From: Hirudinaria manillensis | Lineage: Eukaryota > Annelida > Clitellata > Hirudinida > Hirudinidae | Reading direction: 5' to 3' | DNA length: 64,000 nt | Assembly (NCBI GenBank): GCA_034509925.1 | Contig: CM067537.1 | Span: 2,350,001 to 2,414,000 of the forward strand | Shown: positions 108-62,447 of the stretch, piece after piece | Numbering within the stretch: position 1 is the first letter of the stretch | Layout: the number at the start of each line of letters is the position of its first letter | Program-made: the position numbers and the translations under genes | Notes under the pieces: generated by a model | Told to the model about the DNA's origin: nothing | Seen by the model: only the letters and a program-made list of their open reading frames with translations | Databases searched by the model: none

Positions 108-1346
108 CCCCATAATCAAAGATTCGAGGAATGAAGACACCTGTTCTTGCCAGCCAATCGAACTGAAAATTTTGGATGTGGTGCTGTTGATGAGGAAATC
201 TAATTGGAGGGCTTAAGTCAGGTGGCTGATCGCTATTGGAGGATCTTTGGTGAATGGGCGGAGCCATCGAGGATGGAATGGGGGTACGAGAAAAATTCGA
301 GGTTCTGTTATCATGGAGCTTGTTGAAGACGACTCTCTTGTCCGCCATGTTTTGTTGGAGTGACGTCACTGGGGAATGGAATGCACTTCCTGTTGCTGCC
401 GAGAGGAGGGAGAGAGTCGTATTGGAAAAGACTCCACTTGAACCTTAAAGAGGTCGATGAATATTCATTGGCTTCGATTAATTAAAACCGTGCATGGAAT
501 GCGCCAGTCGATGAGATGGAATCCGTTAGCATAATTAATTGCTTGCCAAATCAAAGTGAAGTTGGCGCGTGCAGACATTGGCACATTTAAAGATTTTAAA
601 GCACATTTTCTGATATTTATTAACAAAATTATAACATAAAAATATCGAATATTTCATCCTAGTGTTCGTAATTTAAGCATCACTATCCATAACATGAATA
701 TTCATTGTCATAATTGCTGATTATTAATTACAAATCACTGACCCATAACCCTTGAAGTATTGAATCTCCTGAAAAGATCAACCGTCGACGAATTAAACAG
801 ACTTCCGTGAACCGACCCATCTTCTTTGACCTCGTTTGAACCCAGGTGACCTTCGCCTTTGTCTCCATGGAAACTGGAACTGCTGGAAGAAGACCTCGAC
901 TCTCGACGATGCGAGGAGAAGTCTCTGTCGTGGTTCTCGTTCTCGCTCAGACTCGACTCATCGTTGCTAGGCAACTCCCCTCGTCCCTCGTCGTCGTCAT
1001 CGTCATCGTCTCTTTCCCTCTTGACGTACTTGTCCAGGAGGTCTTGCTGTTTCGAGTCCAGACCGGAGCGGAATGGAGCAAGGGGTCCGTCTTCGCGGAT
1101 CCTGGAGAACTCTTTCGACTCATCAGGAGGACTGGATGCACGGAGGACGTACTTGCCGACTGGAAACGATCTGTCGACAGAACGGTCGTCGGAGTACACG
1201 CCGGAGCAGAGGCCGGGCGGATACGAGGCCGCGGAACGATGGCGGTGGTCGAGGTCATTGGGGTTCTGGTTGTCCTCGATGTTCGACGCCGGAGAAAGTA
1301 GAGCGTCGATGCTGAAGTTCTTCCTCTTGTCCTCAGTTTTGAACAT
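108..1346 (-). CDS. Mnx-like homeobox protein, 5' part (two exons; homeodomain outside window)
   Basis: Two coding exons on the minus strand, 743-1346 and 108-368. The first ends with G|GTCAGT and the second starts after CCCAG; the phases match (G + TG), and a GTAAGT donor follows at 107, so the gene continues past the left edge. The N-terminus carries KNFSIDALLSP, very like the Eh1-type KNFRIDALLA of Mnx/HB9 proteins. The end of exon 2 reads FQFDWLARTGVFIPRIFDY, comparable with the Mnx pre-homeodomain stretch FQLDQWLR...ILPKMPDF. Between them are Asp-rich (about residues 113-119) and Ser-rich low-complexity tracts. Mnx proteins are nuclear DNA-binding factors; the Eh1 motif recruits Groucho-type corepressors. 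The assignment rests on the two flanking motifs only, because the homeodomain is not visible. Another NK/ANTP-class family is possible. Confidence 0.55.
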
Positions 1347-3293
1347 GTCGCCTGTAGGAACTATGGAACGCTGCGTGTGTTACGAGTCCGGAACGACGAG
1401 GCACCTAACCTCACGATGAAACTCTGCGATTCACCAGTACGGACGGACGGACGGACGGGCGGGTATGGAATTTATGGAAGCAACAAGACGACCTGCTGGA
1501 AAGAGAATGGCTGTGCATCAACCTCGGCTCGGAAAGGATGACGCTAATGATGAACTGAACGCACGGAATTCGCGCTCGCATTTCCGTTCCGCCAGTTGTT
1601 TTACGAGTCGAACGATCCGATTGGTCGCCGGCGACCTGACGTCACAGCCAGGTGGGCGGGGCCGGTGGCGGTCGAAGAGCCACTTAAAAAAGAATTATGC
1701 TCAGTGCGTGGAAAGCGGTTGGCTGTTTAATTAAGGAGCGCGAGAAGTGCTGATGGAGGCGCGAAGAGAGAGAGTAACAGGCGTCTGCCATCGATTCCCG
1801 CTCTTACACTTTCTCTTCTCGAGAATTATGTATTACAATTATTCGGATGGACAACAAGTCTTTGAGCGAGAATATCAAATGCGAATATTATTATTATTAT
1901 TATTGTTATTATTATTGTTATTGTTATTATTATTGTTGATGTTTTTATATTTATTGTTGTTATGGTTATTATCTCAACATTAATGTTGCCGTATTGATAT
2001 TGTTATTGGTTATAACAAATAAAAATACATTCAAATTTAACATTCAAAAATGTTAAATAATAATAATAATAATAATAATAATGATAATAATAATAATAAT
2101 AATAATAATAATAATAATAATAATAATAATAATAATAATAATAATAATAATAATAATAATAATAATAATAATAATGAATTATTTGACGCCATCACGGCAA
2201 ACATTGATCACCTATGGCTTGTTTGTGGAGCGTGACGTCAGCACTACTATCAGGATTTAAAGATGGCCAATGCCGCTTAATGAACTTATCAATGCTCAGA
2301 TCTGCTTAAGAGAAAGAAAAATATGTTTGTGGTTTATTGAAAGGAATAATGCAAATAATAAAAAAGAAAATGATGATAATAATAATAATAGTTTTAATAA
2401 TAACAATGATAGGAAATTCGCTGATATAACTCTGATATTATTTGCCTTGTCCATCGTCTTTTTGGTTTACCAGTATCATTATTAATAATTATGATTGTTA
2501 TAATTTGATATTTAGTTTGAATTCAATTCATTTGAAAATGATTCGATTCCACAGAGACTCCCAGAGAAGCTAATCAGATGAACAATGCCTTGTCCAGATA
2601 GAGTTGGCCATTTAGCATTGTTTACCCGTGTAAATTAATAAAACACATCTGTACTGTCCGTGACAAAGAGACCTTTTCGAAGACTTTGCAAAACGCTCCA
2701 ATATCAAGAATGGATTTGCTATTTTAAAAATCGACGGCAGAATTTAGCAATTGTTTGGAAATGATAGTTGACTAATTTTAGATGACGATGATTGATTAAA
2801 ATATTGTTAGGAAGAAAGTTTGATTTGTTTTGGACTTTTGTTTGTTTAGTCAAATGAGATACGAACACTTCGGTGGACGTTTTTCAGTGACGGTGCTTGT
2901 AAATGAATTTAATTTATGGAAATTTTTGTTTACATATCCATGTAAAATTGATTACAAATGATCACTAGATTTACGTTCTTAAAAATTCAAATTTGCTCGC
3001 TCTAATAATTTATTTGTCAGTTCAAAGTGAAATATGAGATGACCTTGTCTGCATTTGGCATATCTGTTAACGATTTGTCACAGTTTTTATTATTAACTGA
3101 TAAAGTCAAACAAATTAAAATATTTTTTATTTTTTAGATTTGAAACAAACTAAATTTTGCTTCATTAATAAAGAAAGGACCCTGCAAAAATCTATAAGCT
3201 ACGTCCTGCGACATTTTACCTAAGGCTAATTCGTCAACAGGTCTATCGTACCTTGCCTGCAGATTATTTACGCAGCTTTGATTATCTTCAGAT
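1347..3293. other. Spacer between the Mnx-like gene and GCDH, with microsatellites
   Basis: Contains the presumed upstream region of the Mnx-like gene, including a GGAC-type tetranucleotide run near 1441-1460 and relatively GC-rich DNA to about 1740. A TTA/TTG-rich tract lies at about 1887-1985 and a long (AAT)n array at about 2055-2175. I see no convincing coding exon; the short frames here are homopolymeric or translate repeats. Confidence 0.6.
2055..2175. repeat. (AAT)n microsatellite, about 120 bp
   Basis: Near-perfect trinucleotide array with one GAT interruption near its start. It lies in the spacer upstream of GCDH and gives a false poly-Asn reading frame. Confidence 0.95.
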
Positions 3294-60674: not shown

Positions 60675-62447
60675 ATGGACTCGACCAGGGGTCATCGCGT
60701 TCGATTCCTGCTGCCGGACAAGGACGAATGGAACGACGGAAAGTGGCTGGATGATGACGAAATGAGGAAGAGATTCGATCTGAAACTGTCCAGACTGGTC
60801 ATACCTCCGCCTCCAAAGTTGAGTCACCAGTTGAAGAATCCCGACGAACTACTTGTTGAATTGAAGAAGAAACTAATGGCCATCGACAGAACGATCCAGT
60901 TCAGGGAAGCCATCATCGAGGAGGAAGATAGTTTAGGTTACGATTCGCTTATTTTCGGATTGGCTTTAGTCAATGCTTTGCTTGACTTATGTTTATGCAT
61001 TGGCTGACCTAGATAACTTTGCAGGGGGCAAGAAAAAAATTGAAATTGGGGCAAAATTTAGGGCGTCGGTAGGATGGTATGCACGTAGACCTGATTCTCT
61101 ATTCCAATTTCTGCTACTGCATATTGTATGTATATACATTGTGTTAGACAATCGAATCGAGGGAGCCGTTATGTGTCTGTGTAAATGGTATCTTATGTTT
61201 TTGCTTTTTTGTTCTAAATGAAAAATCTTATTACATTTAAACGTTGGAATATTCGGTAACAACATCCTGTTAAAATGTTCGTAAATCTTCAATTTGGCTT
61301 TCTTTGTTACTAGTCGAAAATTGCATCGTTGTTCTTTCGTGTAATTCGTTAAGCATTTTCAAATATTAATAACCTCAATTATTGTTATTACTATTATTAT
61401 AATTATTATTATTACGAATTAAATATGATGGATAAAAACAAGCAAATCAGCAAGTCATCACACACTGACCCATGAACTTTAGTAAAATATGTCTGCGACG
61501 CAGTTATTTCCAATGAAGTAGAAATAATTTTTATTGAAGTTCACCTACTCACCATGTTTCGTTTTAGATTTATTAAATCATATTAATTCTAGATAAATTA
61601 AGTATGTTTAAATTTAAAAAAAAAAGAAGAAAGATATGCTTAGACTTTCTTAAGAACTTATTACATAAAAATTCAAACAGATTTGCAGCCGCAAATGAAG
61701 ACTCTCACAACATCTGAAACTCCTTCTGAAGATCTGAACGAAAAACCAGACAACCTACAGCTACCTGCTCAACAAGACCAACCTACAATACAAGAACAGC
61801 AACAACAACCTCAACCGCAACAACAACAACAGCAACAAGAAAAACAGCCATCAACTAATCACCAACTAGCTTCTGAACAGTTAAAGCAAACCCAGGCAAA
61901 CCAAAACTCACCCACGTTAACATCTAAAGTGGGTCCCAAGCGACCGCCTCTGCCACCGAACAAGAGACCGAAAGAGGAACCGAGAAACGCTCCATCATCG
62001 TCGCCTGGAGCACAGGCCAAAGTCCAGAGACAAGACTCTCTTCCGAGGAGCTTCAAAACCAGGAGAAGATCTTTCAGGGACTTTTCCAAGCGTCAGTTTC
62101 AGAGAGCCCTCTCCGCAATGAACTTGTCAAAGACCGGAACTCAAGATCAGAAGCTGCTGAGATCGAATTCGTTCGACACCAAACTGGACGGTTCCTCCCT
62201 GACGGGCTCGATGACCGGCCTCCAGAAGGACGAGCGAAGGATTCGATCGAAGAGTTCCAGCTCCCTTATGATGTCGAACCTTAGACTGAGATTCCACAGA
62301 TTTCCATCGAACATCTACAAAAAGTCCAAGAAAGGAGACTCATCTGGACAGACGACCATGAAGAGGAGGTCATCATGGAGTAAATTATTTTCGTCCTGGT
62401 CCTCTAACCTGCAGATGTGCACCAGAGTTCAGACGGACGACGACTAG
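60675..62447 (+). CDS. Unknown two-exon protein, 342 aa, polyQ and basic phospho-site tail
   Basis: Exons 60675-60936 and 61681-62447; the donor TTAG|GTTACG and the acceptor AAACAG agree in phase (D split G/AT). Exon 1 encodes a well-ordered segment (DEWNDGKWLDDDEMRKRFDLKLSRL, then VIPPPPKLSHQLKNPDELLVELKKKLMAIDRTIQFREAIIEEED), a likely helical domain. Exon 2 starts Gln-rich (polyQ about residues 125-150), passes through a Pro-rich PKRPPLPPNKRPKEEP stretch that could bind SH3 domains, and ends in a basic Ser-rich tail with kinase-like sites RRRSF, LRSNSF, IRSKSSSS and KRRSSW. I do not recognise the family. A cytoplasmic signalling scaffold is a reasonable guess only. Confidence 0.6.

Follow-up and report, generated by a model that had tools for sequence, protein, structure and literature searches.

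Donor sites (5' splice sites) of the annelid Hirudinaria manillensis are loosened at intron position +3, and we favor recognition of these intron starts by a diversified U1 small nuclear ribonucleoprotein (snRNP), to which we give a probability of about 0.45. The starting point was a 64-kb stretch of DNA (positions 2,350,001 to 2,414,000 of contig CM067537.1, here C12; referred to as the window) in a genome of 148 Mb and 23 contigs. The looseness at +3 is real, with a pyrimidine at about one third of the donors fixed by protein homology rather than at one half. The donor consensus is supported as loosened, with purines still enriched at +3.

Donors were placed using a spliced aligner without a donor model, in which introns were allowed to start with GT, GC or AT and to end with AG or AC. 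Solved structures of histidine ammonia-lyase, annexin, ACMSD, ETFDH, GPD1, GCDH and PRPF8 served as protein templates. The support for a donor was taken as the score lost when that donor was forbidden (its cost), and donors with a cost of at least 10 were regarded as fixed; donors costing less than 10, one ambiguous annexin pair, and GC and AT donors were left out of the counts. The 54 unique GT donors fixed with PDB templates only have A (19), G (19), T (14) or C (2) at +3, giving a pyrimidine share of 16/54, or 30% (95% confidence interval 19–43%). Six further donors, three in ARF, two in SNRNP27 (with the intronless copy from the same genome as template) and one in MALT1, extend the set to 60 with A 20, G 20, T 16 and C 4, so that pyrimidines account for 20/60 (33%) and T for 27%. 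The pyrimidine share was little changed by a stricter cut at a cost of at least 20, which leaves eight T and one C among 37 donors.

As a background, the base following interior GT dinucleotides within introns is A in 24%, C in 13%, G in 17% and T in 46% of cases. Relative to this background, fixed donors are enriched at +3 in G (2.0-fold) and A (1.4-fold), and depleted in T (0.58-fold) and C (0.52-fold). T at +3 is thus tolerated, not preferred. At the other positions, 34 of the 54 donors have G at +5, 30 have A at +4 and 44 have G at −1. Donors with T at +3 (T+3 donors) also differ from purine donors at +4, having G in 8/16 and A in 3/16 compared with 2/40 and 28/40 (P = 0.0003 for the linkage of +3T with +4G and P = 0.0008 for the difference in A).

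A pattern for the U1 small nuclear RNA (snRNA) loop matched the genome at 224 places, and its reversed control matched nowhere. Of 100 matches listed, an array on C8 accounts for 63 and another on C11 for 11. The 5' ends of the 65 U1 genes that were read, which represent 35 distinct bodies, are AAACTTACCTGG (39 genes), TAACTTACCTGG (7), ATACTAACCTGG (6), TAACTAACCTTG (6), ATACTTACTTGG (3) and four singletons. Over nucleotides 1–11, only positions 1, 2, 6, 9 and 11 vary, while 3, 4, 5, 7, 8 and 10 are invariant; T or A is found at nucleotide 6, C or T at 9 and G or T at 11. Nucleotide 2 of U1 is usually U. Here, it is A (AAAC) in 39 of the 65 genes, with TAAC in 14. The array on C8 (C8:561592-599060) repeats a unit of about 606 bases and holds at least 63 U1 genes in tandem; every copy read there has AAACTTACCTGG.

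Nucleotide 6 of U1 is the partner of donor position +3, so that a U1 with A at this nucleotide can pair with U at +3. A pattern for U1 genes with a base other than T at nucleotide 6 gave 19 hits, of which 13, on four contigs, are U1 genes, all with A (A6 genes) and none with C or G. One of the remaining six hits was read and lacks the U1 loop, and five were left unread. No hits were obtained for U1 changed at its fifth nucleotide, a change that would account for GTTG donors. Six of the A6 genes belong to the C11 array, and the other seven, here called dispersed, lie on C5, C8 and C9. The four that were scored against the Rfam U1 model (RF00003; gathering threshold 69.5) reach 151.2, 144.2, 138.6 and 130.0 bits, and the A6 gene at C9:6896667 is the third best of 42 matches to that model. 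In place of ACUUACC, A6 genes have ACUAACC at nucleotides 3–9 (ACUAACU in C8:1177714). The stem-loop I loop GATCANNAAGG is present in all A6 genes read. The stem-loop II loop CATTGCAC is kept in six of the seven dispersed A6 genes, the exception being C8:614897, and is absent from the units of the C11 array. This tandem array (C11:5436500-5438000, 5443800-5446200 and 5452800-5454000) has a unit of about 316 bases and consists of short U1 genes without loop II, the U1A site; some of its copies combine A6 with T11.

The motif CACC is found 53–57 bases upstream of 64 of the 65 U1 genes read, the lone exception again being the A6 gene C8:614897. Twelve of the 13 A6 genes have it at −56 or −57. We infer that this promoter-like element is the proximal sequence element. 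All four dispersed clusters read (one on C5, one on C9 and two on C8) contain canonical, A6 and T9 genes, and in one of them T9 and A6 occur in the same U1 gene. A tree was built from 34 U1 bodies with nucleotides 1–11 removed and with the C11 A6 copies left outside. The seven dispersed A6 genes need six changes on this tree, at least three of them forced by supported branches, and a single A6 clade is rejected for these genes by the approximately unbiased test (p-AU 5.7e-6). Shuffling the A6 labels gave a similar degree of scatter, with a value as low in 182 of 500 shuffles, so A6 is spread over the tree as if at random. This scatter may come from repeated mutation, from an exchange of 5' ends or from homogenization of neighboring gene bodies.

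Pairing between U1 and donors was calculated with nearest-neighbor energies, with the duplex free to choose its register and pseudouridine outside the model. With canonical U1, the energy for T+3 donors is −5.5 kcal/mol as against −7.3 kcal/mol for purine donors (P = 0.013). With A6 U1, T+3 donors reach −7.3 kcal/mol (P = 0.94 against canonical U1 on purine donors). Interior GTT decoys have no gain from A6 (−1.76 compared with −1.79). Of the 16 T+3 donors, 13 pair better with A6 than with canonical U1, which is true of none of the other 44 donors. The 27 possible single changes at U1 nucleotides 3–11 were also ranked by their pairing gain on donors. Position 6 is where a change of U1 pays most, although G6 pays more than A6; on 175 other donors from ab initio prediction, A6 ranks second of the 27. 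The linkage of +3T with +4G among the 60 fixed donors is predicted by neither canonical nor A6 U1 pairing.

The protein U1-C is also duplicated. Two intact reading frames lie in convergent orientation about 1.9 kb apart (C2:2139128-2141140). The second has an open frame of 267 residues with a zinc finger scoring 73.3 bits against a Pfam cut-off of 22, and it shares 30 of 60 N-terminal residues with the first. Residues T11, Y12, T14, H15, S19 and H24 of U1-C are reported to bond the duplex backbone (PMC4383343). The first U1-C keeps T11, Y12, T14, H15 and S19. In the second, these five of the six duplex-bonding residues are replaced by I, N, K, N and R, while C6, C9, R21, K22 and H24 are kept. 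A literature search on duplicated U1-C found no paper.

In the mechanism that we propose, most of the U1 genes read, which have the canonical ACUUACCUG, would supply a U1 that pairs best with a purine at +3. The minority with A at nucleotide 6 (ACUAACCUG) would be able to pair with U at +3, and in a few genes U at nucleotide 9 or 11 would allow pairing with A at −1 or −3. Such variants would relax selection at +3 until about a quarter of donors had T, with C remaining rare. A6 U1 would have to be expressed, enter snRNPs and select T+3 donors, and the second U1-C may take part. After hand-over from U1, unchanged U5, U6 and PRPF8 would complete splicing. The A6 genes with their promoter-like element, together with a second U1-C whose duplex face is changed, put a diversified U1 snRNP on a roughly equal footing with plain tolerance of the mismatch. 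An extended form of this mechanism seems rather unlikely. In that form, several U1 snRNPs (canonical, A6 for U at +3 and U9 for A at −1), perhaps with an adapted second U1-C, would share out donor choice as codons are shared among tRNAs, and the donor consensus would have drifted along with them.

Several observations weigh against a diversified U1 snRNP. A6 genes are a minority of the U1 genes, and one of them, C8:614897, looks degraded. T is less frequent at +3 than after interior GT, and the pairing gain that A6 gives T+3 donors is in part true by construction. Among the 27 changes ranked on the 60 fixed donors, A6 comes fourth by gain, behind G6, C6 and G5. A6 U1 predicts A at +4 of T+3 donors, and the base mostly seen there is G, as given above. 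U9 and U11 are unsupported as donor-matched changes, ranking 13th or 14th and 25th, respectively, on the fixed donors. T at nucleotide 2, which predicts A at +7, is found in every A6 gene outside the C11 array, whereas most genes with T at nucleotide 6 have A2; matching through +7 is likewise unsupported, as T+3 donors show no excess of A at that position. The U1 of Caenorhabditis elegans is canonical. Roughly 3% of human introns begin with GUU, at odds with the value of about 16% published for human together with the C. elegans figure. C. elegans itself is reported to have about 16% GUU introns, and the same paper gives about 16% for human (PMC8865678). In addition, single alanine changes at the duplex contacts of yeast U1-C were reported to be without growth effect (PMC4383343).

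In principle, a canonical U1 tolerating a U–U mismatch at +3 would be enough. Under this explanation, canonical U1 and U1-C would accept the mismatch, donors would be loose at several positions, and the A6 genes would be minor or dead and have no role; we consider its chances to be somewhat short of even. The depletion of T relative to interior GT is consistent with it, as is the presence of G at +5 in only 34 of the 54 donors. The level of GUU introns in C. elegans (PMC8865678) points the same way, 14/54 differing from 16% with only P = 0.042, and U1-C has been reported to favor binding of +3U oligonucleotides relative to wild type (PMC4383343). Nevertheless, T+3 donors are uncompensated at other positions and pair with canonical U1 worse than purine donors do. 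Moreover, the promoter-like element is still in place upstream of 12 of the 13 A6 genes, and A6 genes recur in every dispersed cluster read.

A change at a later step, with an altered register or modification of U6 accepting GTTG donors, is improbable. It would suit the linkage of +3T with +4G, which goes beyond U1 pairing. Nevertheless, the later machinery looks ordinary as judged by motifs and gene presence, and U6, the U5 loop, PRPF8, SNRNP27 and METTL16 give no pointer to a change after U1. Three U6 genes were found, all with the canonical ATACAGAGAAGA. Three loci of the 47 U5 genes scored were read and have the loop GCCTTTTAC; a tandem array with a unit of about 350 bases (C11:6062382-6146320) contains all of the 47 U5 matches listed. 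PRPF8 aligns with the human protein without gaps over 283 residues spanning four introns and is nearly identical across the tested junctions. SNRNP27 has an apparently intact intronless and an intron-bearing copy (C1:804138 and C5:4337652), both with QYMNR. There are three LUC7 genes and a METTL16-like gene that carries NPPF. A switch at +4 through loss of METTL16 or SNRNP27K does not apply, as a family search found both genes. A one-base shift of U6 for GTTG donors was rejected, since T at +5, which it would favor, is not raised in +4G donors (0.21 compared with 0.26 in the ab initio set). The sequence-only reading of the window had proposed altered U1/U6 pairing or a change in a splicing factor. 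Genomic support was obtained for the U1 half of the first proposal, in the form of the 13 A6 genes, and not for the U6 half; as to the second, PRPF8 is near-identical to the human protein across the junctions tested, and both copies of SNRNP27 keep QYMNR.

Ab initio prediction gave higher pyrimidine shares. A self-trained, two-strand gene finder was run on 224 kb comprising the window, its flanks and two other places, of which about 20 kb was read as N. Runs started from flat and from textbook donor models converged, with 282 introns common to both (of 310 and 323). The 273 shared GT donors have A in 27%, C in 11%, G in 26% and T in 36% at +3, or 47% pyrimidine, and the share rises to 55% for the 83 introns of the window; T alone varies among the three places sampled (43, 24 and 34%). 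In genes with templates, 29 of the 74 ab initio introns were unconfirmed by homology, 16 of these 29 with T or C at +3. Since T comes next at 46% of the interior GT dinucleotides of introns, false donors resemble T+3 donors. The ab initio counts were rejected as a final answer because 29 of the 74 testable introns failed the homology check. This failure rate is also what favors an origin of T+3 donors in wrong gene models or a bad assembly, which is nevertheless very improbable, as pyrimidines persist in 16/54 template-fixed donors and in 9/37 at a cost of at least 20, and three of the four donors in the gap-free stretch of PRPF8 have T. The sequence-only reading had put the pyrimidine share at about half of donors and had suggested a consensus of GTNNGT. 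Pyrimidines at +3 do occur at homology-fixed donors; their share is 30–33%, the 47–55% of the ab initio sets being inflated. The donors are loosened to that extent, and purines are still enriched at +3, so GTNNGT overstates the shift.

Within the window, GCDH lies on the forward strand and was aligned to 1siq. Three of its seven GT donors have T at +3, namely those of the introns at 4075..4321 (AAG|GTTTAA, cost 24), 4929..5255 (ATG|GTTCGT, cost 20) and 5479..5665 (GGG|GTTGGT, cost 32). The last is the exon 6 donor that had been singled out as an example from the sequence alone, and homology fixes it. A is found at +3 in the introns at 3787..3950 (AAA|GTAAGT, cost 15), 5770..5915 (CAG|GTATGT, cost 19) and 6479..6819 (AAG|GTAACG, cost 29), and G in that at 6042..6317 (ACA|GTGAGT, cost 17). 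The intron at 4432..4798 (TAG|GCAAGA, cost 12) is a GC-AG intron fixed by homology and stands outside the GT count. Several pyrimidine donors had likewise been claimed for MALT1. One, on the reverse strand, is fixed with the MALT1 structure sequence (36454..36624, first intron base 36624; ACG|GTTGGC with T at +3, cost 17), and the gene finder predicts the same intron. Two other junctions placed by the aligner cost 1 and 2 and are therefore not fixed. Outside the window, PRPF8 has T at +3 in four of eight template-covered introns. Two GPD1-like genes lie with their pieces in tandem just outside the window, at C12:2330200-2339000.

Natural U1 variants with a changed base in the donor motif are known from another invertebrate, the planarian Schmidtea mediterranea, in which expression of the U1C1 and U1C2 snRNA variants was measured (PMC6312358). 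Their C-to-U change facing −1 is the nucleotide 9 change seen here. The parts of that paper considered name no variant facing +3, which is the main change in H. manillensis, where the variants are known from genes alone. Human variant U1 snRNAs are similar in that numerous additional U1 genes exist and the recognition sequence is altered in some of them (PMC13172311). There, a different base is changed: vU1.3/.4 carry C to T, proposed to allow AT donors, and knock-outs show effects, whereas only genes are seen here. In Eurytemora affinis, one of several U1 genes (C8 to U) would also match an unusual donor class (PMC7072748). Unlike in H. manillensis, where GT is kept and +3 varies, the GT dinucleotide itself is affected in that species (GA-AG introns).

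Fritillaria borealis resembles H. manillensis in that its 5' splice sites are loose and its core snRNA motifs conserved (PMC13326754). Its U1 5' ends are described as identical, and its non-canonical splicing is attributed to U2AF duplication and N6-methyladenosine changes; H. manillensis keeps GT-AG, and its U1 5' ends vary. The yeast switch between A and U at +4, associated with METTL16 and SNRNP27K, is another case of donor preference evolving at one intron position (PMC10581693). It is explained by protein losses, while in H. manillensis a METTL16-like gene and SNRNP27 are present and U1 varies. C. elegans shares a sizeable proportion of T+3 introns, with no U1 variation linked to its GUU introns in the parts of the report considered (PMC8865678). 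The 27% T at +3 found here is higher than its figure of about 16%, and thus high, not unheard of.

A limited literature search found no natural U1 change facing +3. The U1 motif ACUUACC is reported as invariant in all 227 yeasts and nine outgroups with a U1 candidate (PMC10581693). The heptamer is near-invariant where surveyed. Gene finders trained on donors with a purine at +3 will mis-predict the H. manillensis genome. With its ordinary-looking U5, U6 and PRPF8, several U1 5' ends, duplicated U1-C and loose donors, this genome would be a direct test case for the ability of U1 to diversify in step with donors whose consensus drifts.

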